From Pseudomonadota bacterium (GTDB lineage Bacteria; Desulfobacterota; Syntrophorhabdia; Syntrophorhabdales; Syntrophorhabdaceae), in contig JAPLKC010000085.1 of NCBI GenBank assembly GCA_026388255.1, positions 1-64,000 of the forward strand: a stretch of DNA of 64,000 bases. Direction: 5' to 3'. Of this stretch, positions 415 to 63,014 are shown one piece after another. Below the pieces are notes generated by a model, which searched no databases, was not told the origin of the DNA, and saw only the letters and a program-made list of their open reading frames with translations. Within the stretch, counting starts at the first letter, position 1, and the number at the start of each line of letters is the position of its first letter. The translations under genes and the position numbers were made by a program.

Positions 415-792
415 CTATTTTAAAGAAAATCTCTTTTTCATTAATAGAAATTTCGTGTAATCGTCCCATAGATAAGGATTGGTGAGAGTTGTTCTGTTTA
501 TTTGAGCACCGTATTTCCTGAACTCCTTCTTTTTTGTGTTTTTAAAATAGTCTGAAGCCCAACGTATCGTTACTGCAAATGTAGAGACCTCTTCACCTGT
601 TTGGAACATAAGCGTAGCAACATCACCGACTTCCATAGTATTATTTCTACTTTTTGGGAATTCATATAAAAGACCGGTCTTACTGATATTTAATATTTTT
701 ACCTTTTCCTTAAAGTCCGAATTCTTGATAAAAAACCGGCTATACTTTTCTTCTTTTACATCACAACGTAAATCAATCCTGTTTTCCTTCAT
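415..792 (-). CDS. PilZ-domain protein
   Basis: A 125-residue stand-alone PilZ-like protein. The two signatures of cyclic-di-GMP binding are visible: RxxxR at residues 5-9 (RIDLR) and N/DxSxxG at 35-40 (NISKTG), followed by alternating beta-strand-like segments. PilZ proteins are cytoplasmic receptors that pass c-di-GMP levels to motility, export or transcription partners. The start is supported by an AAGGAGA ribosome-binding site just upstream. It is monocistronic, with a fadL remnant upstream on the same strand. The partner is unknown. A second PilZ protein, fused to a DNA-binding domain, lies at 61.7 kb. Confidence 0.75.
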   Translation of the reverse strand: MKENRIDLRCDVKEEKYSRFFIKNSDFKEKVKILNISKTGLLYEFPKSRNNTMEVGDVATLMFQTGEEVSTFAVTIRWASDYFKNTKKKEFRKYGAQINRTTLTNPYLWDDYTKFLLMKKRFSLK

Positions 793-31871: not shown

Positions 31872-32615
31872 ATGAAAAAACTTGTCCTTGTACGACATGG
31901 AGAAAGTGTCTGGAACATGGAGAACCGTTTCACCGGTTGGACCGATGTGCCGCTCTCAGAAAAAGGTACAGAGGAAGCAATTCAGGCCGGACGTATACTT
32001 AAAAAAGAGGGGTATGTTTTTGATGTGGCATTTACATCAGTGCTGAAGCGGGCGATAAAAACCCTCTGGATCGTACTTGAAGAAATGGATCTTATGTGGA
32101 TTCCCATTTATAATAGCTGGCGGATCAATGAGCGTCATTACGGGGCGCTGCAAGGTCTTAATAAAGCCGAAATGGTCGAACAGCACGGGATGGAGCAGGT
32201 CCTTCTCTGGCGCCGCAGTTACGATATCCGCCCTCCGGCGCTCACACCGGATGATCCGCGCTACAATGGCAAGAATCCCATGTATACCGGTTTAAAACCC
32301 GAGGAGATACCTTTCACAGAATGTTTGAAGGATGCTGTTGAACGTTTTATTCCTTTTTGGGAGGGCACTGTAGCACCGGCTGTCTCAGGGGGCAGACATG
32401 TGGTTATCTGTGCCCACGGGAACAGTCTCCGTGCCCTTGTAAAGTATCTGGATGATGTACCGGATGATGAGATTACTTCCCTCAATATCCCTACAGGAAT
32501 ACCCCTTGTATACGAGCTTACAGATGACCTTACGCCGATCAGGAGCTATTACCTGGGAGACCAGGAGGCGGTAAAACATGCGATGCAATCTGTAGAAGAC
32601 CAATTAAAGAAATAA
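31872..32615 (+). CDS. gpmA: 2,3-bisphosphoglycerate-dependent phosphoglycerate mutase
   Basis: A 247-residue histidine-phosphatase-fold enzyme interconverting 3- and 2-phosphoglycerate. The phosphohistidine motif [10 protein letters not shown] is at the N-terminus; [26 protein letters not shown] with the catalytic Glu, and [12 protein letters not shown] with the second His follow. It complements the gapA-pgk-tpiA operon at 15-18 kb. The ATG at 31872 follows GAGGAGG; upstream in-frame codons are rejected. Confidence 0.95.
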
Positions 32616-32776
32616 AAGAGTAAAATAAAGTTGATTTTGCAATTTCCCTGTGCGATATTATTAAGCGAAGTTTCGGAAGCACCTGTTGTTTTGGCCGCAA
32701 ATTGCCTTTGATTTTTTGTAGTCACCCACAACACAGTTCCGTATTCTTCAATATTATTCAAGGAGGGTTTAATCCT

Positions 32777-32977
32777 ATGGTAAAAGGGACTGTTAAGTGG
32801 TTCAACGAGTCAAAAGGTTTTGGTTTTATAACTGGTGAAGATGGAAATGATGTTTTCGTACATTATTCAGCCATCCAGGACAGTGGTTTCAAATCACTTT
32901 CTGAAGGTCAGGAAGTGACATTTGAAGTTGTCAGCGGTCCGAAGGGGCCAGCAGCGGCAAACGTAGTAAAACTCTAA
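32777..32977 (+). CDS. Cold-shock-type nucleic-acid-binding protein
   Basis: A 66-residue CspA-family OB-fold protein. [18 protein letters not shown] contains RNP1 (KGFGFI) and DVFVHYSAI contains RNP2. It binds single-stranded RNA or DNA and melts structure. The ATG follows AAGGAGG. The roughly 160-base leader from gpmA could be a regulated 5' UTR, as in other csp genes, but no specific element is recognised. Confidence 0.94.
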
Positions 32978-32985
32978 GCCAGCCA

Positions 32986-33013
32986 AGCAGGCCCGGATTC
33001 CTCCGGGTCTGCT
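32986..33013 (+). terminator. Hairpin after the cold-shock gene
   Basis: AGCAGGCCCGGA (32986-32997) pairs with TCCGGGTCTGCT (33002-33013), with one G-T wobble and a 4-base loop. No long T-tract follows, so termination strength is uncertain. Confidence 0.55.
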
Positions 33014-33077
33014 CAATAATATACCCTGCAAAGTTTGAATAAGGTTTTTGTCTTTGTGTAATATAATACTACCTTGT

Positions 33078-34694: not shown

Positions 34695-35438
34695 TCAATG
34701 TGGAAAAGATCCGGCATCGTTTAGTCGGGATCTGAATTTCCTGCTTAAACCAACAATACCAAGAAAACCAAGTATTGCAAACAGTATAGATGATTGCTCG
34801 GGCACACTGAGATTTTGGTTGTATGTATATGTAACCTGGCCGGTTAAGCTCCCGGTCGTGGTTTGAGATGTATCAACGTTCCCTCCTGAAAATGAAGTCC
34901 ATGACATAGTTAGGCTGGAAGCGGGGAGATCAATATTCCCAGTACCTGAAAATTCAGCCAGCATTGCAGGGTTGTTAGAATTCATAAATATGTTCTGGCT
35001 TCCATTAAAAAGGGTTGACACCCTGGTTTGACCGGGGGCAAGGGGAAGCAGAGGGGTGGCGAATAAATAACCGGTGCCTGTCGGCAAACTTATGTCAAGC
35101 TGGCTGCCATAAGGATCAGGTAAAAGGTTTAGCGGGTCAGTTACACCCATCATGAGTTCGGTCTTTGCACTGCCGTATCTAACCGGTGTGGTACCTGTAT
35201 TTTTAACTGTAATTATTGTTTCCATGCCGCCTGAAAGTCGTAGTTCCATATCGGTTAATGTTGCATTCGGTATATTGAATTTCTGAAATTGAAGGGAATA
35301 TGAAGCGGCCCAGTCAGTCAATGTCAATGGAATAGGGGTTGACGTAGTGTACGAAACTGTGTCTGCCTTTGCACCTGCAATAGCTAAACATAAAATCAAA
35401 AGAAAAGTGGTTGAAAATATTATTGATTTTTTTGTCAT
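34695..35438 (-). CDS. PEP-CTERM sorted surface protein
   Basis: About 247 residues. A signal peptide (KKSIIFSTTFLLILCLAIAGAKA) is followed by a strand-rich domain without a known name. The C-terminal sorting signal is VPEQ, a hydrophobic helix (SSILFAILGFLGIVGL) and a basic end (SRKFRSR), slightly extended by further residues. Such proteins are cleaved by exosortase and usually end up on the surface with exopolysaccharide. An exosortase gene lies 280 bases upstream on the same strand. The ATG at 35438 follows GAGAGG. Its promoter carries an AATGTAATATAT motif shared with two genes at 61-63 kb. Confidence 0.85.
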   Translation of the reverse strand: MTKKSIIFSTTFLLILCLAIAGAKADTVSYTTSTPIPLTLTDWAASYSLQFQKFNIPNATLTDMELRLSGGMETIITVKNTGTTPVRYGSAKTELMMGVTDPLNLLPDPYGSQLDISLPTGTGYLFATPLLPLAPGQTRVSTLFNGSQNIFMNSNNPAMLAEFSGTGNIDLPASSLTMSWTSFSGGNVDTSQTTTGSLTGQVTYTYNQNLSVPEQSSILFAILGFLGIVGLSRKFRSRLNDAGSFPH

Positions 35439-35483
35439 CTTTATTGTACCTCTCATTTTACATCATAAATAAAATACATTTTT

Positions 35484-35525
35484 ATTTTAACACAGTATAG
35501 TTTTTTTGTCAAGATATATTACATT
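35484..35525 (-). promoter_or_regulatory. Promoter of PEP-CTERM gene 1 with shared motif (site B)
   Basis: On the minus strand TTGACA (35507-35512), a 17-base spacer and TAAAAT (35484-35489) form a good sigma-70 promoter. Immediately upstream of the -35 lies AATGTAATATAT (35514-35525), also found at the RHH-PilZ promoter and the second PEP-CTERM promoter. Confidence 0.6.
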
Positions 35526-35717
35526 ACAATAACAGGCAGTTTGGTTAATATTGGCACATTACTTTACGCAAAAACATTCATAATATTCATATTATTTTTT
35601 CAACAGAAACTTATTTTAACCTGGATCAGAAAAATGTTAATGATGTTTGTCCGGTTTTATTGGTGCGTTTAAAATAACTGTAAAATGTGAATATGACCCA
35701 CATAATCCGGGTTAAAC

Positions 35718-36605
35718 TTAATTTCGCTTTTTTTTCTCTGATTTTATTAAGAATATGAAAATGCACCCCAAAAGACATATCGCAGGTATAGCGAATAATG
35801 CACCGCCACGAAGATGCAAAAACTCCAGGACAGGATGCTGTGGATTTAAATAAATTGCCATCATAGAAAGCACAAAAATACGGAAACCGTTCTTCAATAT
35901 AATAATTGGAAAAACAGAAAAGATAAACAAAGCTCTTTTCCACCCGGTGTACAAAAAAAGATAACTTGAAAATATAGCAGGCATCAATATTCCCATGGCA
36001 GAGCGAATTCCACTGCATTGCTGGTCAATTGATATATCAATACCTGGACAATGAAAAACAAACCCTTCTTTCAAAAATGAAATTCCGGCAAGCTTAAATA
36101 AAATATAAGTGATCCATGCAGATATAACATTCAATGTATAGATAATCTTGTCCAGCAATAGGCTTGGAAAAGGAATTATAAATAAAAGAAATAAAAACGG
36201 GAAAAATGCCGCCCGAAAAGCATTTATACCATACAAAACAATAAAACTGCCTATCCACAATATAAGAGCAGAAATGATTACCAGCGCAACATAATCATTC
36301 ATACCAAGATTTTCTCTCATGTTTCTTCCAAGCAAAAAAAGAATAATCCCGACTGCCAGAAGCGGGATGCCAACTGCATAAGAATGCTCCAGATTAGAGA
36401 AAATAATTTTCCTTTTTTTATAGATTAGATATCCGCTTGCTAATGGGACTAAAATAATGTGGGAGTAGTACTCAGCATAAGTATCAATTCGAAATAGAAT
36501 TATCAGAGCCTCAAAACATATTCTTAATATCACCAGAGTTGAAATAAAAAAAATACTATTTCTTTTATTAAGATACGCTTTAAGAGAGATAAATATATTT
36601 TTCAA
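35718..36605 (-). CDS. Exosortase
   Basis: A 295-residue polytopic membrane cysteine protease/transpeptidase that processes PEP-CTERM proteins. About eight hydrophobic helices are visible. The catalytic triad is present: Cys197 in QQCSGIRS, Arg242 in NGFRI and His264 in FLHLRGG. It starts with TTG at 36605, after AAGGT. The nearest substrate is the downstream PEP-CTERM gene; a second lies at 62 kb. The large exopolysaccharide cluster often linked to exosortase genes is not in this window. Confidence 0.92.
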   Translation of the reverse strand: MKNIFISLKAYLNKRNSIFFISTLVILRICFEALIILFRIDTYAEYYSHIILVPLASGYLIYKKRKIIFSNLEHSYAVGIPLLAVGIILFLLGRNMRENLGMNDYVALVIISALILWIGSFIVLYGINAFRAAFFPFLFLLFIIPFPSLLLDKIIYTLNVISAWITYILFKLAGISFLKEGFVFHCPGIDISIDQQCSGIRSAMGILMPAIFSSYLFLYTGWKRALFIFSVFPIIILKNGFRIFVLSMMAIYLNPQHPVLEFLHLRGGALFAIPAICLLGCIFIFLIKSEKKKRN

Positions 36606-49354: not shown

Positions 49355-50273
49355 ATGGCAACAAAAAAGACAACCGTAAATCCTGAATTTCTGTATATCT
49401 CCGTAGACAAGATTATAGTGTTGGAACAGGTGAGATCGAGTATTAATACTGAAACAGACTCATTTAAATCACTCGTGCAGTCAATTAAAGACAAAGGCAT
49501 CTTAGAACCGCTTATCGTAACCGCACAGAATGACGGAACATATTTACTTATCTGCGGGGAGAGACGTCTCGTTGCAGCCCGGCAACTCGGACTTGAATCC
49601 GTACCGGTGAGAGTTATTGAAGCAGGCAAAGAGTTAGGGGACACCATAGCCCTTCAACTTACAGAGAACCTCTAACGGGAGGACTTGAATCCCATAGATC
49701 AGGCTAAAGGAATACTCTCATTTATTCAGGCGAAACATCCTGACAAGGGGTATGGTATGGACGGGGTTATGAGTGAATTAGTAATGTACAATCGGAGGCC
49801 CGAAGACCTACCTGAGGAAATTGCTACAACGTTTGTAGCAATTTCCAAAATTGCTGCAAAGTCAATATCTACGCTGTTTAACATAATTTCACTTTTAAAA
49901 CTTTCTCCCGAGATTCAGGCCGAAATTCAGGCAGGAAATCTCCCCGTTTCTCAGGGTTATCTCTTTGCTGCAAACCTTGATTGTCCAGATATTCACCGAC
50001 ATTATAAAAACACCAGTGACCTATACAACTTTAGAGAGCAGACTCACAGCATACAAAAAAGTAAAACCTGACCCGAATAATACAAAACCCGTATCCGTGA
50101 AGAAACAGGTTAAAGGTCTTATATCAATGAAGACAACCTTTGAGACGGGCCTTGGAACTTATTTAAGGGAAGATATTGAAAAGTTTCTTTATGAACTACA
50201 GGTTTTCTGTGATTTTGTGCAACAACAGGCGCCAAAGGCTCCATACGGCAAGAAAAGACCACCACAAGTGTAA
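49355..50273 (+). pseudogene. Decayed ParB/Spo0J-like protein
   Basis: A ParB N-terminal nuclease/CTPase-like domain is readable at 49355-49675: ISVDKIIVLEQVRSS, then SIKDKGILEPLIV and CGERRLVAARQLGLESVPVRVI, ending QLTENL. A TAA interrupts where ParB proteins normally read ENLqREDLNPIDQA, and translation resumes in the same frame (REDLNPIDQAKGILSFI) with a HTH-like middle part. A frameshift near 50000 moves the rest (TTLESRLTAYKKV) to another frame, ending at 50273. No parA is nearby, so it is an orphan from a plasmid, phage or island. Confidence 0.75.
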
Positions 50274-54621: not shown

Positions 54622-57399
54622 TCAGAAGCTCCCTGCACTCTTTGGACCACCTGCATTATTCGGTGTTTTAGACCATGTGCCAAGCTGGGTGGAACCTGCA
54701 TCACCGCCCTGTGCCGGCGTCCAGTATCGCTTGTTGGCATAAACGTCTGCCACTACAGTGCCTGTATCTATATATACACCCGTATTCACCTGAACCTTAT
54801 CGGCGCTCATTATTATGGCCGGCGACGTGAGGGTGACCGTACCGCTTCCGCCGAATACTACAGCGCCGCCCGACAATTCACCACCATAAAGTTTTATCTG
54901 GGTATTGGCGTCCATCTTGCTTCCTGCATAGATATTCAAAACCCCCTGAGTCCCAAGAGCCCCTATTTTTATGATATCGGCCTGGAGCCCTGCCCCGCTT
55001 AAAATGTCAATAATCCCTTTTGTTCCGTTATTGACAATACTGAGATCACCGTAATCAGCAACAATATTTTTTCCGTAATTGACTCCGCCGTCTTTCAGGC
55101 CATCGATTTGAATTTTACCTCCGGCTGATGTAAGCTGCACCTTTGCACGGCCCGCAGCAGGAAGAGATGCATAAAGCAGCGCGAGAATTTGCCCGCTGCT
55201 TGTTACATCTATCGCGATTGAATCAGGATCAGCTTTCTGGCTGTCAATGGTAATGCTTCCCGGTTTTTCACTTGAGGTACCCATAATCCAGGGTGAATTG
55301 CTGGCCTGCACCCTGCCGCTGATATTGACCGTACCGTTGCTGTTCAATCCGATCGACCCGCCGCCTGTTAACCGGTTGTCGGTAAATGCCTCAATAAGCG
55401 CTCCACTAACGAGCGATAAGTCCCCACCGGCAGTTGCGGAAAAGGTATCTGTGCCCCATATTCCTCCGCTTATCGTGATATTCCTATCCGCCGTAAATCC
55501 TACGTTTGCAAATCCGTCTATATTTGCATTTGCGCCAAGCGTTATATCACCGCCTGAGCCTTTTGCATTCACAGTCAGTTCCTGGGATGAACGAGACTTG
55601 TTGTTTCGGAGGGCAGTTGCCTCCAGCCGCAGTCTCTCTGCTTCGGCGAGCTGATCCGGGGCCGAAGTGTTGAAATAGGTATAATAGTCGTTTTGCGCAA
55701 GGGTGTTTAAGTTATCATAGGTCGTGGTACTCCCTGAGAGGGCAACATATCGCGGGATGTCTGTAACGGTGTTTATGGCCGCCACTGATTCAACTGTTTT
55801 TATGTACCCCAGCCTGATGAGGTCCTGTCTTCTGAATGGCGTAAAATACTGGTCGTGGCCGCCCTGGGCGCCTGTCGTGTTATGCTGCGGATTATTGCTC
55901 ACAAGGGCATACGTCACCGGCAGCGGCCTCATGACCTCATAGGTAATTACATAGGACCTGTATGTGAAATCCCCTGTCACAGACGGATTGCGGTATGGGC
56001 CCACCTGGACGAATCCATTATATAAACGGGCATCCACATTTGACCCTGTCATGGCGTCCTGCTTTGCCTGCTCTGTTGCAAAATAATTCGAGTAGGCCAC
56101 AGTAGTGCTCGCCGCATCAGAGGTTGCTCCGTGCACGAGTTTTGTGCCCGTTGCAATCGGCGCGTAAGCCTGCCATTTGTCCACACCATAGTATTCACCC
56201 GAAGCCTGGGTGAGCTTCGCCCTGTCTGCAACCGATAAGGCAGGTATCGATGCCGAGATGGTTTGATTGATGTTGACGGAACCGTTTGACGCAGCAAGTT
56301 TCAGGGTTGACAGGCCGGAGTTTACGGTAAAAGGTCCGGTAACGTTTATATTGCTTTGCGAATCCAGTTCGAGCTTGTCTGGCGTTCCGGAAGGTATGGC
56401 AACCCCGAAAGTTCCCGCAATATTAAGACTGTCGAAATCAAATACGGTAAAGGCCGGGTTGCCCTTTATATCACCTGTAGCAACCTGGATATTGTTTCTT
56501 GAAAGCTGTCCGCCCATATCTATGGTATCACCTGAGCCGAGGGTAAAAGTCCCCTGTTTTGAGGCATTATGCGTTACATCTGATCTGCTTTCAAGGGTCT
56601 TCAGGAGATTGTCGGATGCAATGACCAAACTCGCACCGGACAACATAACAAGATTGGTATTTATCAGCGTTCCTGCAGAAATTGTTTTCTGCTGTTCTGA
56701 GACAGCATTATTTATGTTATTCAGATTTAACGTCGTAACACCTGTATTCGTTCTGATGTCTCCCTTCAGATGGATAAGCGTTGATGTCTGAATCAGGCGT
56801 CTTAAATCTACATCAACAGGGTCAGGCAGACTGTTTGATCCGGGAGGCAAAATAAGCATTTTGCCCGCATCCACAGGTATTCTTTCGCCAAACCGGCTGC
56901 TGATTGATGCCTTGGCTGCCCCTTCTACTACGATAAACTTTGCATAGCCTCCCGGTGCGTGTTCAATCAAAACAGTTGCCCTGTCTGCCTCATAGGAAAC
57001 ATTGCCTGTTATGATATTTATTGAACCGGCTTCTTTTGGTACCTGCATAAGGAGTGTGCCGCGCTCTAACGTAAACCCTCTGGTATTATTATCTACGTTA
57101 AGCACGGTGTTCGAGCCCAGCCTGGCCAGTGTACCGTCAGGAAAGACAATCTCTGTCCTAGAATCCCCTCCTGTAGAAACCTGCCCGGCAGCCTGAAAAA
57201 CATCGTTGACCTTTACCGGCTCAGGGGCCGAACCACCCTTTGACAATCGCGTTTCTCCGCTCACAAACGTGATAACAGCGCTGTTCGTGGTCTGACTATA
57301 CAGTAGTGTTGTAAAGCATGTTATACATGCAAGGAGTAAGAAGAAGGCAATGCTGTGCCTGCAATGAATCTTTGAAGTTTTCTTGAGAAGAGAAAACAT
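54622..57399 (-). CDS. Large FecR-domain surface protein with filamentous strand-rich body
   Basis: A 925-residue exported protein. A signal peptide (SIAFFLLLACITCFTTLLYSQ) is followed by a FecR-like domain (about 40-190; EIVFPDGTLARLGSNTVLNV, FTLERGTLLMQVPKEAGSINIITGN). The rest is rich in Gly, Asn, Ser and Thr with many short beta-strand-like repeats (for example NINGxG-, ITISGGIWG-, VNISGRVQAS-type), resembling filamentous-haemagglutinin-like solenoids. The N-terminus lacks the two-partner-secretion domain. Twelve bases upstream lies the outer-membrane barrel gene, a likely partner. Confidence 0.75.
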   Translation of the reverse strand: MFSLLKKTSKIHCRHSIAFFLLLACITCFTTLLYSQTTNSAVITFVSGETRLSKGGSAPEPVKVNDVFQAAGQVSTGGDSRTEIVFPDGTLARLGSNTVLNVDNNTRGFTLERGTLLMQVPKEAGSINIITGNVSYEADRATVLIEHAPGGYAKFIVVEGAAKASISSRFGERIPVDAGKMLILPPGSNSLPDPVDVDLRRLIQTSTLIHLKGDIRTNTGVTTLNLNNINNAVSEQQKTISAGTLINTNLVMLSGASLVIASDNLLKTLESRSDVTHNASKQGTFTLGSGDTIDMGGQLSRNNIQVATGDIKGNPAFTVFDFDSLNIAGTFGVAIPSGTPDKLELDSQSNINVTGPFTVNSGLSTLKLAASNGSVNINQTISASIPALSVADRAKLTQASGEYYGVDKWQAYAPIATGTKLVHGATSDAASTTVAYSNYFATEQAKQDAMTGSNVDARLYNGFVQVGPYRNPSVTGDFTYRSYVITYEVMRPLPVTYALVSNNPQHNTTGAQGGHDQYFTPFRRQDLIRLGYIKTVESVAAINTVTDIPRYVALSGSTTTYDNLNTLAQNDYYTYFNTSAPDQLAEAERLRLEATALRNNKSRSSQELTVNAKGSGGDITLGANANIDGFANVGFTADRNITISGGIWGTDTFSATAGGDLSLVSGALIEAFTDNRLTGGGSIGLNSNGTVNISGRVQASNSPWIMGTSSEKPGSITIDSQKADPDSIAIDVTSSGQILALLYASLPAAGRAKVQLTSAGGKIQIDGLKDGGVNYGKNIVADYGDLSIVNNGTKGIIDILSGAGLQADIIKIGALGTQGVLNIYAGSKMDANTQIKLYGGELSGGAVVFGGSGTVTLTSPAIIMSADKVQVNTGVYIDTGTVVADVYANKRYWTPAQGGDAGSTQLGTWSKTPNNAGGPKSAGSF

Positions 57400-57410
57400 C
57401 AGGCAGCTCC

Positions 57411-58385
57411 TTAAAATTTAATCTTTATCCCGATATTCGGGGCTAAATTTACTACGTTATACTCAAAAACGCCGTTATTTGACTGGTTGAATGCCGCGAA
57501 GCTTGAAAATGTCAGAATCAGCCAAGGCTTTGGCTTATAAGTTATCCCAAGCGAAACAGACTCATTGTAATCTTCACGACCGTCCTCCTGGTAAGGAATG
57601 TATGAAATGCGAATGCTCACATCAACAGATAGTTTCGACGTAATATCAAGGTTGTACCCGGCAACAGCAGAATGATAGTCCCTTTGATAAATTTTCGGGT
57701 CTGAAAAACCTAACTGGCTTGAATAGCCTCCATAGAGATAGTGCGCCCGGGACAGGGGAAAGGTTTTAAAAAAACCAAGTGTTATACTGTGGTTGCGAAA
57801 ATACTCGCCTACCCCATCTTCATTGGTAAGCCTGTTATAGTTATAACGGCCAAAAACTGCCAGGTTGGAAAGTTCGGGTATGGCATAAGAAAGTCCGGCC
57901 CCCACGTTTAAGCTGTCAAAATTCATATCCTTAAACCTGTCATAACGGAACCATTGCTGTACAAAGGTAATTTCGCCAAGCAGGTTGGGACGTATTATGG
58001 GCTGGTACGAAATCCCGGTAGTGGTAACAATATAATTATCATCCTGCGGGTTATTTTTTGTCAGGGCTACGTTGCTTGTCCAGTTTCCTGCAAGATTCCC
58101 GAAAACGGAAAAAGGTTCGTATTCGGATTTTCGTTTAAGGATATATTGCTGTCCTAACGCATCGTCTCCGGGCGAGACAGGGGCGGTTATGTCTTCCGGT
58201 CTGGGCTTAAAAACTTCCGTTGCCTTGCGTCCCAGTTGTGAAAGCTCTTCAATGTCGGTGCGCTTTTCTACTTCAATCCGGGAGCTTTCGGGGGGCTGTT
58301 GTCCCCAAACCACAGGCGTAAAAAAACACCCTAATATAACAAAAACTAAAAAGACCATTACAGTGATTTGATCTACGATTTTCAC
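57411..58385 (-). CDS. Outer-membrane beta-barrel protein
   Basis: About 324 residues with a signal peptide (KIVDQITVMVFLVFVILGCFFTPVVWGQ) under a GTG start at 58385. The mature part begins with a charged helix (RIEVEKRTDIEELSQLGRK) and continues as alternating aromatic/hydrophobic strands ending in Phe (NIGIKIKF), typical of outer-membrane barrels. It precedes the FecR-domain protein gene on the same strand, 12 bases apart, so it may export or anchor it. It is too short for a TpsB transporter and lacks POTRA domains. A frame to 58439 exists. Confidence 0.7.
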   Translation of the reverse strand: MKIVDQITVMVFLVFVILGCFFTPVVWGQQPPESSRIEVEKRTDIEELSQLGRKATEVFKPRPEDITAPVSPGDDALGQQYILKRKSEYEPFSVFGNLAGNWTSNVALTKNNPQDDNYIVTTTGISYQPIIRPNLLGEITFVQQWFRYDRFKDMNFDSLNVGAGLSYAIPELSNLAVFGRYNYNRLTNEDGVGEYFRNHSITLGFFKTFPLSRAHYLYGGYSSQLGFSDPKIYQRDYHSAVAGYNLDITSKLSVDVSIRISYIPYQEDGREDYNESVSLGITYKPKPWLILTFSSFAAFNQSNNGVFEYNVVNLAPNIGIKIKF

Positions 58386-58632
58386 AATATAAATCCGGAC
58401 CCTTGCATTAAGTAATACTATATTATAGACGTTTTGCAAGAAAGGTCAATGCCAATAAATTTAGAACAGTGAATCTCCTCATTTTACAAGGCAGGGAGGT
58501 TCGTTGTAATATTCCGTTAACTTTTACTGTTGAATCTTAACCAAAAATTGCTATAATACAGCGGATATATAAAAATGCGCACTTTATGTCTTGACGTAAT
58601 GGCATCACGAATAATACTACAGGGATACTTGG

Positions 58633-61579: not shown

Positions 61580-61628
61580 TTGACAAATTGAGCACCATAA
61601 TGTAATACATTGTATTGCTATGTATTAC
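61580..61628 (+). promoter_or_regulatory. Promoter and operator of the RHH-PilZ gene (site A)
   Basis: TTGACA (61580-61585), a 17-base spacer and TAATAC (61603-61608) form the promoter. Overlapping the -10 is AATGTAATACAT (61599-61610), part of a larger inverted repeat GTAATACAT/ATGTATTAC (61602-61610 with 61620-61628) and an inner palindrome AATACA-T-TGTATT. This is a convincing dimer or tetramer operator for a ribbon-helix-helix protein. The rest of 61351-61683 holds no gene. Confidence 0.65.
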
Positions 61629-61683
61629 GACAGGCAATTTAAATATTCAATAAAAGATAGGCTCTTAAATACTGGAGATGGAC

Positions 61684-62190
61684 ATGGGTAAAAATATCAC
61701 TATATGTTTTCGTACCAGTGAAGATTTACGCAATGAATTGAAGAAGATTTCAAAGGAAGAAAGAAGGACTTTGTCTTCAACAATAGAGACTATTATTTAT
61801 CAGTATTTGCAGAACGGGAAAAAAGATCAAAATATGAACGAAGAAAAACGTCGCTATCCGCGAAAGCAGGTTTCTCTTCCTGCCTTGGTTAGTAAACCCG
61901 GTTCAAACGATCATACAATACAGGCCGGGATAGTCTTAGATTTATCTCTTAACGGGATACAGGTTTCAATCCCCAATAATTATAAGTATAGTATACAAGA
62001 AAACGCTGAAAATGGTGATACTCCGAAGATATCTATTATCTTTACATTACCTGACAGTAAAAAACTTCTAACCATGCAATGCACGCCTCGACATGTGTAT
62101 AATTCCAAAGATGAGACCAATATTGGGGCGAATTTTGTTGATACTGATTTTGCGGGTTGTCAAACACTCCAGAGCTACCTGATTAATTAA
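61684..62190 (+). CDS. Ribbon-helix-helix/PilZ fusion regulator
   Basis: A 168-residue protein. Residues 1-45 form a CopG/Arc-like ribbon-helix-helix unit: a strand (NITICFRTS), then SEDLRNELKKISKEERRTLSSTIETII. A short linker leads to a PilZ domain with both c-di-GMP motifs intact: R56-R60 (RRYPR) and D86-x-S88-xx-G91 (DLSLNG). The ATG at 61684 is preferred over 61678 because GGAG at 61674-61677 has proper spacing only for it. A strong palindrome covers its promoter. It is likely a transcription factor switched by c-di-GMP, and it precedes a PEP-CTERM gene. Confidence 0.8.
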   Translation: MGKNITICFRTSEDLRNELKKISKEERRTLSSTIETIIYQYLQNGKKDQNMNEEKRRYPRKQVSLPALVSKPGSNDHTIQAGIVLDLSLNGIQVSIPNNYKYSIQENAENGDTPKISIIFTLPDSKKLLTMQCTPRHVYNSKDETNIGANFVDTDFAGCQTLQSYLIN

Positions 62191-62244
62191 TCTGCAACTA
62201 CATTTATAAGGGTTTGAATTGTTTATTTTATGGTGTGAGGGTTA

Positions 62245-62967
62245 CTATTTTTTATTGGAGGGCATTTTTACATTACAAAGTTTCGTTAATTTCTTCCTGT
62301 AGATCACAAGACCTGCCAAACCAAAAAGAAGCAGATAAAAAATGTTCGGCTCAGGGACTGTTGCGGCGACCCCGGGTACCTTATCGCTGCCACCGTCGTT
62401 AAACCCTCTGAAACGGGCAACAAAAAATTCACCTTCGTCTGATCTTGCCTGCATAAAACTGCCCGTATTCAGTTGATCCAGATTCTTTCCTGTTAGAGTA
62501 AAAGCAAAACTTGCATTTCCGCCAACACTAATCCCCTTGGATGGGTCGCCACCACCCAGAAAGTCTCCTTTTAAAGCTGCACCAATATCATATTTGCCAA
62601 ATGGCGATGCACTGATAGTGTCTTTAAAGCTTGATCCACCAAGGAGGCTAAAAAAAGAGTTTGAACCAGATAGACTTACATTCGTAATATAATTGTTCGG
62701 ATTATTAAATACAAACCCTGTTAAAAAACCGCCATTACTTGAAGGGCTTGTGTTTTTTAAAGTAACATCCAGTTCCGCCCTTGTTGGCGAGAAAAGTCTG
62801 TATGTAAATTCACCGATAAAATCACCGAGCTTTTCGGTGCTTCTCGAGGCATCTCCGGTAATTGTATCGGCGTAGCCTATAGCCGGGCAAAAAGCACAAA
62901 GAGTAAAGATTGATATTGCCAATACGGTAATTTGATATATTTTGCTGCTCATTTTATAAATGCTCAC
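62245..62967 (-). CDS. PEP-CTERM sorted surface protein 2
   Basis: A 240-residue exported protein. The signal peptide (SSKIYQITVLAISIFTLCAFCPAIGYA) is followed by a strand-rich domain with no name that I recognise. The sorting tail is VPEP, then a hydrophobic helix (NIFYLLLFGLAGLVIY) and RKKLTKL, with a short extra end. It should be processed by exosortase such as that at 35.7 kb. It starts with GTG after GGAG; ATG at 62952 is the alternative. Its promoter shares the AATGTAATATAT motif with the neighbouring RHH-PilZ gene, which converges on it. Confidence 0.85.
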   Translation of the reverse strand: MSIYKMSSKIYQITVLAISIFTLCAFCPAIGYADTITGDASRSTEKLGDFIGEFTYRLFSPTRAELDVTLKNTSPSSNGGFLTGFVFNNPNNYITNVSLSGSNSFFSLLGGSSFKDTISASPFGKYDIGAALKGDFLGGGDPSKGISVGGNASFAFTLTGKNLDQLNTGSFMQARSDEGEFFVARFRGFNDGGSDKVPGVAATVPEPNIFYLLLFGLAGLVIYRKKLTKLCNVKMPSNKK

Positions 62968-62985
62968 TTATTAACTCCACATTTT

Positions 62986-63014
62986 AATATATTACATTGT
63001 AATACAATTGTCAA
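62986..63014 (-). promoter_or_regulatory. Promoter of PEP-CTERM gene 2 with shared motif (site C)
   Basis: On the minus strand TTGACA (63009-63014), a 17-base spacer and TATATT (62986-62991) form a near-consensus promoter. The spacer and -10 contain ATTGT-AAT-ACAAT-type and TTACA-T-TGTAA palindromes and AATGTAATATATT (62986-62998), the motif of sites A and B. A repressor bound here would block RNA polymerase. Nothing coding is seen in 63015-63266. Confidence 0.65.

Follow-up and report, generated by a model that had tools for sequence, protein, structure and literature searches.

The window analyzed here, a 64,000-nucleotide stretch of DNA from a member of the Syntrophorhabdaceae, carries near its end two convergent genes, one encoding a small putative regulator with a PilZ domain and the other a PEP-CTERM protein (Table 1). 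The regulator begins at an ATG located 7 nt 3′ of a GGAG and at the same place as the starts of its relatives; an alternative ATG at 61678 was discarded because it lies too near the GGAG. Residues 1 to 50 form a ribbon-helix-helix (RHH)-like unit, and residues 54 to 166 form the PilZ domain, which scored 37.8 bits against a Pfam cut-off of 22.5. This domain carries the motifs R56xxxR60 and D86xS88xxG91 (RRYPR and DLSLNG), and the residues R56, R60, S88, and G91 show no variation in 20 relatives with identities down to 27%, nor in a 23-sequence alignment. Such a PilZ domain would bind c-di-GMP. A preliminary description of the window had read the gene as an RHH-PilZ fusion with intact c-di-GMP motifs; the intact motifs and an RHH-like segment joined to PilZ are borne out.

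The N-terminal unit is likely an RHH domain, although the profile scores do not prove it. RHH_5 matched the window protein with 14.6 bits, under the Pfam cut-off of 26, and matches to the CopG, Mnt, and pArc profiles were weak (E values of 0.2 to 0.5); in some of the relatives, Pfam finds RHH_1, RHH_5, or Arc. R10, located in the presumed RHH strand NITICFR, is invariant among the 20 relatives. An AlphaFold2 model of the monomer, built from the 23-sequence alignment (pLDDT of 78), predicts two N-terminal helices (residues 13 to 25 and 30 to 50) and a PilZ barrel, and the N-terminal strand is absent from it. A Foldseek search with this model found 4xrn, 4rt0, and 5xly at an E value of 6e-6. The top PDB matches are all PilZ domains, many of them c-di-GMP-bound, and MrkH appears further down.

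The PEP-CTERM motif of the convergent gene scored 20.7 bits at a cut-off of 20.7, and 23.6 bits in the genome search, while the match to the NCBIfam cistern family (35 bits) falls under the cut-off of 60. The genome has only three to four recognizable PEP-CTERM genes, and a chance adjacency of one of them with the regulator gene would therefore be rare. Elsewhere in the window, a choice-of-anchor E gene with a VPEQ-CTERM tail and an XrtC-like exosortase gene lie side by side (34695 to 36605) and probably form a dedicated enzyme-substrate pair. The choice-of-anchor E protein is a likely exosortase substrate, but the analysis does not support its sharing of the operator described below. Other features of the window include a second small PilZ-like protein of 125 aa (415 to 792, minus strand; Pfam PilZ 20.0 bits, just under the cut-off of 22.5), a repetitive secreted protein of 925 aa that has a FecR domain and is followed by an outer-membrane barrel protein (54622 to 58439), a ParB-like sequence spread over several short frames that is possibly a decayed gene (49355 to 50273; ParB_N 54 bits in the first frame), and a borderline match to the cspA thermoregulator (32599 to 33016; 78.1 bits against a gathering score of 78).

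Table 1. Features of the window and riboswitches at related loci, with the basis of each assignment
Feature	Position	Strand	Basis
RHH-PilZ regulator gene, 168 aa	61684..62190	+	Pfam PilZ over cut-off, alignment invariants, AlphaFold2 model
RHH (Arc/CopG-like) putative DNA-binding segment	61684..61833	+	Weak profile matches, Pfam matches in some relatives, model helices
Regulator core promoter, TTGACA-17 bp-TAATAC	61580..61608	+	Sequence; pattern match 61580-61610
Regulator's own putative operator, three boxes at 10-bp steps	61602..61628	+	Equivalent boxes in relatives' promoters
PEP-CTERM (cistern-like) exosortase substrate gene	62245..62967	-	PF07589 at or over cut-off
PEP-CTERM core promoter, TTGACA 63014-63009, 17 bp, TATATT 62991-62986	62986..63014	-	Sequence; pattern match 62997-63014
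PEP-CTERM promoter, putative operator GTATTAC-AAT-GTAATAT	62989..63005	-	Regulator-trained matrix score 18.99
Claimed third site, rejected as operator	35514..35531	-	Score 8.0; P 0.26
Choice-of-anchor E protein, VPEQ-CTERM tail	34695..35456	-	Adjoins exosortase
Exosortase (XrtC-like)	35718..36605	-	TIGR02602 113.9 bits, cut-off 105.55
c-di-GMP-I(-GGC) riboswitches directly downstream of box promoters	L117 9103-9475 and 7254		
c-di-GMP-I(-GGC) riboswitches directly downstream of box promoters	L175 709-808; L195 4305-4403; L100 9881-9957		

The preliminary description had proposed AATGTAATAyAT as an operator-like motif shared by the regulator and both PEP-CTERM promoters, next to TTGACA with a 17-bp spacing. 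In our own reading of the sequence, TTGACA and the 17-bp spacer are present at all three promoters. The motif occurs with zero mismatches at 61599-61610, 62987-62998, and 35514-35525; with up to two mismatches, it occurs 45 times in the window versus 19 times in shuffles. The conserved unit, however, is a 7-bp palindrome, GTAWTAC, repeated each 10 bp. Three such boxes (GTAATAC-ATT-GTATTGC-TAT-GTATTAC, at 61602-61608, 61612-61618, and 61622-61628) overlie the −10 and start region of the regulator gene, and two are placed between −35 and −10 in the PEP-CTERM promoter. The −10 hexamer shares bases with the downstream box, so part of the conservation of this box may reflect the promoter. Visual inspection of the 250 bp that precede the PEP-CTERM gene revealed no sigma-54 −24(GG)/−12(GC) pattern.

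With a scoring matrix trained on regulator promoters only, the PEP-CTERM site stands far apart from its surroundings: the next untrained site in the 64 kb scored 10.2, and the maximum in 40 Markov copies of the window was 15.8, versus 18.99 for the PEP-CTERM site. Its upstream region has a Markov P of < 0.0005, and that of the gene starting at 35456 has a P of 0.26. The 35514 site has four mismatches to the box pair and lies upstream of −35 and not in the core promoter; because its score is equaled or bettered at 18 places in the window and its P value is high, we regard it as noise. A regulon of all PEP-CTERM genes is likewise not supported, as two others of the genome (the L002 paralogue and L004) are without boxes (P of 0.5 to 0.6) and the presence of exosortase does not track the regulator.

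The boxes are non-random in position and not in genome-wide number. Box-pair patterns show no genome-wide excess over a reversed-pattern control (559 versus 794, and 66/70 versus 78/85). When no more than one mismatch is allowed, the pair pattern yields the four best sites of the 3.83-Mb genome: two that overlap each other in the regulator promoter, the 62989-63005 site in the PEP-CTERM promoter, and a fourth within the coding sequence of a transporter. This number is not above chance, given a composition estimate of about 4 to 5, and with up to three mismatches allowed the reversed-pattern control gives the higher count. The preliminary description had named equal frequency of the motif elsewhere as grounds for refutation; this applies to the loose motif and not to the phased pair at these positions.

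The regulator is present in a single copy in its own genome. Relatives were identified in 23/39 genomes of the family and in 17/395 genomes of the phylum, where at least 14 are full length and two f77 matches comprise the PilZ domain only; other families of the phylum are also represented. Named relatives come from metagenome assemblies labeled Syntrophus, Syntrophorhabdus, Syntrophaceae, and Deltaproteobacteria. In the named family genomes, a single-protein query matched nothing and an alignment query found relatives. Loci L098 and L172 are one contig, as are L099 and L174, and L175 and L195 belong to one assembly; none was counted twice. Exosortase was found in 8/14 phylum genomes with a full-length regulator versus 156/395 overall, a co-occurrence that we set aside as not convincing.

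Boxes in the regulator promoters are kept across genera while the flanks diverge. TTGACA is followed by GTCATAC-ATA-GTATAAC in L099, by GTGTTAC-AAT-GTATCAC in L100, and by GTTTTAG-TAT-GTATAAC-ATG-TTAATAT in genus g8, where the −35/−10 spacer is conserved, unlike most of the 5′ leader. The pattern TTGACAN{3,20}GTAWTACAW has a single match in the whole G201 genome and a single match in G306, each adjoining the regulator gene. Among 246 ORF upstream regions in the loci, scores above 10.7 belong, by inspection, nearly all to regulator genes or to the neighbors described here.

These neighbors include surface-protein genes of several kinds. In L098 (Syntrophus sp. SW.010), a VPLPP-CTERM gene is convergent with the regulator, as in the window, but encodes a different substrate protein, and its promoter reads TTGACA-14-GTATTACATT GTTTTCTCTG GTACTTAATT GTATTACAAT in 10-bp phase (Markov P of 0.012). 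In L117, which represents another family, two box promoters lie downstream of the regulator (P of 0.0045 and < 0.0005). The first, TTGACA-AGC-GCTTAAC-CTT-GTATTAC, leads into a tandem pair of c-di-GMP-I riboswitches and then a pair of VPIPA-CTERM genes. The second, TTGACA-GCC-GTTTAAC-TTT-GTATTAC, leads into a leader that resembles a riboswitch by eye, without an Rfam call, and then into a DUF218-galE-gmd-fcl set. L175 has the order regulator, TTGACA box promoter, c-di-GMP-I-GGC riboswitch, and VPIPG-CTERM gene (P of 0.0005). L195 has two box promoters, one called riboswitch and a look-alike, and VPVPA- and VPVPP-CTERM genes, followed by the regulator (P of 0.006). In L181, the gene directly downstream of the regulator is a PEP-CTERM gene whose promoter contains a box (P of 0.065). 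A decayed PEP-CTERM gene (AVPEPASLLLLGLGLVG and then a stop) adjoins the regulator in L173, and in L170 the regulator is preceded by a riboswitch and followed by a PEP-CTERM gene (26.6 bits). Of these loci, L098, L117, L175, L195, L181, and L170 served as held-out relatives. In G306, a box promoter (P of 0.0005) and a riboswitch persist beside the regulator (L100 9780-9960), with neither an intact substrate beside it nor an exosortase found in the genome; this looks like the remnant of a lost substrate locus. In L197 (5702-10875) and L198 (5831-10734), SCPU/PapD (Csu-type) pilus genes come immediately after the regulator gene, and the boxes lie upstream of the regulator-pilus unit and upstream of −35. 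A pseudopilin operon near these pilus loci is preceded by a c-di-GMP-I riboswitch.

Other loci lack such an arrangement. No exosortase substrate was found near the regulator in g8, g9, and g249, where the neighbors are galE and unrelated genes, and no exosortase was found in g8. Boxes at EPS/exosortase operons in G380 and G097 are single, without a phased partner, and are retained as candidates only. A conserved match at a tolQ/exbB-like promoter of g9 and a match inside the ribE coding sequence of g8 were not counted, being single boxes or attributable to coding conservation. No c-di-GMP-I riboswitch was found in the window, and none matched among the 150 of 318 candidates scored in its own genome. 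A purine-rich GGAGGTGA/GGGGGTGA stretch recurs past the aptamer in L117, L175, and L195. The riboswitch leader folds include no clear terminator and no clear indication of the sign of the riboswitches.

Across 16 promoters, matches to GTAWTAC on either side of the primary box are most numerous at offsets of +10 bp (z of 3.9) and −10 bp (z of 2.7). At 12 untrained sites, the mean number of matches is 4.25 at ±10 bp versus 2.92 at other offsets (P < 5e-5, with 0/20,000 draws as high), a value that is optimistic because the paired-box matrix or visual inspection had led to some of these sites in the first place. Collectively, the box promoters beside regulator genes, placed before non-homologous PEP-CTERM and VPxPx-CTERM genes and often accompanied by c-di-GMP riboswitches, strongly support the core of the earlier proposal, namely, that a one-component RHH-PilZ protein controls exosortase substrates in connection with c-di-GMP; the named motif and the 35514 promoter drop out of it.

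From the computed domain make-up, motifs, box phasing and position, repeated neighborhood, and riboswitches, we infer DNA binding, c-di-GMP binding, repression, and release by a c-di-GMP-responsive one-component RHH-PilZ repressor of the surface gene and of itself, a reading to which we assign a probability of roughly 0.7. MetJ, Arc, and CopG dimers line up side by side on operators about one helical turn apart. Since 7-bp palindromes at a 10-bp pitch are the layout expected from MetJ and Arc operators, each GTAWTAC box would be gripped by one RHH dimer, with the dimers side by side every 10 bp, or one helical turn. The bound regulator would block RNA polymerase at its own promoter and at the neighboring surface-gene promoter, as suggested by boxes that cover the −35/−10 space or the −10. 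Binding of c-di-GMP by the PilZ domain would alter DNA binding; the PilZ motifs and the recurring company of c-di-GMP riboswitches point to this ligand. In the several relatives where the box promoter feeds a c-di-GMP-I riboswitch, both transcription initiation and the leader RNA would respond to the same signal.

The most likely sign, at somewhat better than even odds, is that c-di-GMP releases the repressor, and the surface protein would then be made upon commitment to matrix or attached life. Expression of matrix and adhesin genes usually increases with c-di-GMP, and the RHH receptor CdbA, compared below, loses DNA when binding this messenger; both favor release. With the same regulator and operator, c-di-GMP could instead strengthen binding as a co-repressor, or upstream sites could activate, and the surface genes would fall as c-di-GMP rises. 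The sequence is compatible with either sign, the boxes in L198 lie upstream of −35, and the riboswitch leaders have no clear terminator, yet the two arguments for release weigh against this opposite behavior, which we judge unlikely while giving it more credit than the remaining alternatives.

The regulator might also control only its own gene, in which case its binding to the PEP-CTERM boxes would be incidental, if it occurs at all, and the neighborhood would reflect hitchhiking. The retention of regulator-promoter boxes without a substrate neighbor in g8, g9, and g249 and the lack of genome-wide enrichment fit this explanation, but the boxes recur before unrelated substrates beside regulators in several lineages, with differing families and orientations, which makes it improbable. 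Slightly less probable still is that another regulator binds the boxes and the RHH-PilZ gene is merely a member of its regulon. In its favor, the −35/−10 geometry is common to all genes in the set; against it, the boxes track the neighborhood of the regulator gene across families, and palindromic 7-bp sub-sites at a 10-bp pitch fit tandem RHH dimers such as those of MetJ and Arc. That the boxes are only −10 hexamers and AT-rich promoter sequence is very improbable: TATTAC and TATAAC do resemble −10 hexamers and AT-rich DNA is box-like, but the partner boxes lie one turn off, in the −35/−10 spacer or past the −10, and dinucleotide Markov controls speak against it.

Beyond the window, the RHH-PilZ repressor would represent an undescribed family with its own operator code that controls exosortase-sorted proteins as well as surface structures of other kinds (EPS precursor genes and Csu-type pili), in several lineages in series with a c-di-GMP riboswitch, a generalization that we consider reasonably probable. 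No description of an RHH-PilZ regulator, and no report of exosortase substrates tied to such c-di-GMP-responsive transcription, was found in the open-access papers searched. If true, exosortase surface proteins would be tied to c-di-GMP, a new architecture would be added to the few c-di-GMP transcription factors, and initiation and a riboswitch would answer the same messenger on one transcript. The c-di-GMP-I riboswitches (RF01051 and RF03167), which relatives carry in the leaders of these transcripts, are RNA and not protein.

Among known c-di-GMP transcription factors, which a 2025 review describes as mostly HTH proteins plus MrkH (PMC12564702), two come closest. CdbA of Myxococcus xanthus is an RHH DNA-binding protein that loses DNA upon c-di-GMP binding (PMC7156744). 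Unlike the window protein, in which PilZ is fused to the RHH unit, CdbA is a stand-alone RHH protein without PilZ, and c-di-GMP binds the RHH itself; it is nucleoid-associated, occupies GC-rich global sites, and has little transcriptional effect. MrkH of Klebsiella pneumoniae shares a PilZ domain with RxxxR and D/NxSxxG motifs and controls the transcription of a surface adhesin, the type 3 fimbriae (PMC3161979), but it has another DNA-binding part without RHH (PMC12564702), is an activator, and differs in architecture. The known transcriptional control of PEP-CTERM genes is by PrsK/PrsR/RpoN (PMC1569441; PMC9850573), a two-component system with an enhancer-binding protein and sigma-54 −24/−12 promoters, in contrast to the TTGACA-17-TATATT promoter and putative one-component RHH-PilZ regulator described here. 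The 2006 paper that defined the PEP-CTERM/exosortase system reported PrsK/PrsR and sigma-54 control and left further regulators and DNA motifs to be found (PMC1569441). The RHH-PilZ protein, for which a specific operator and specific targets are proposed, is a concrete candidate for such a missing PEP-CTERM regulator.
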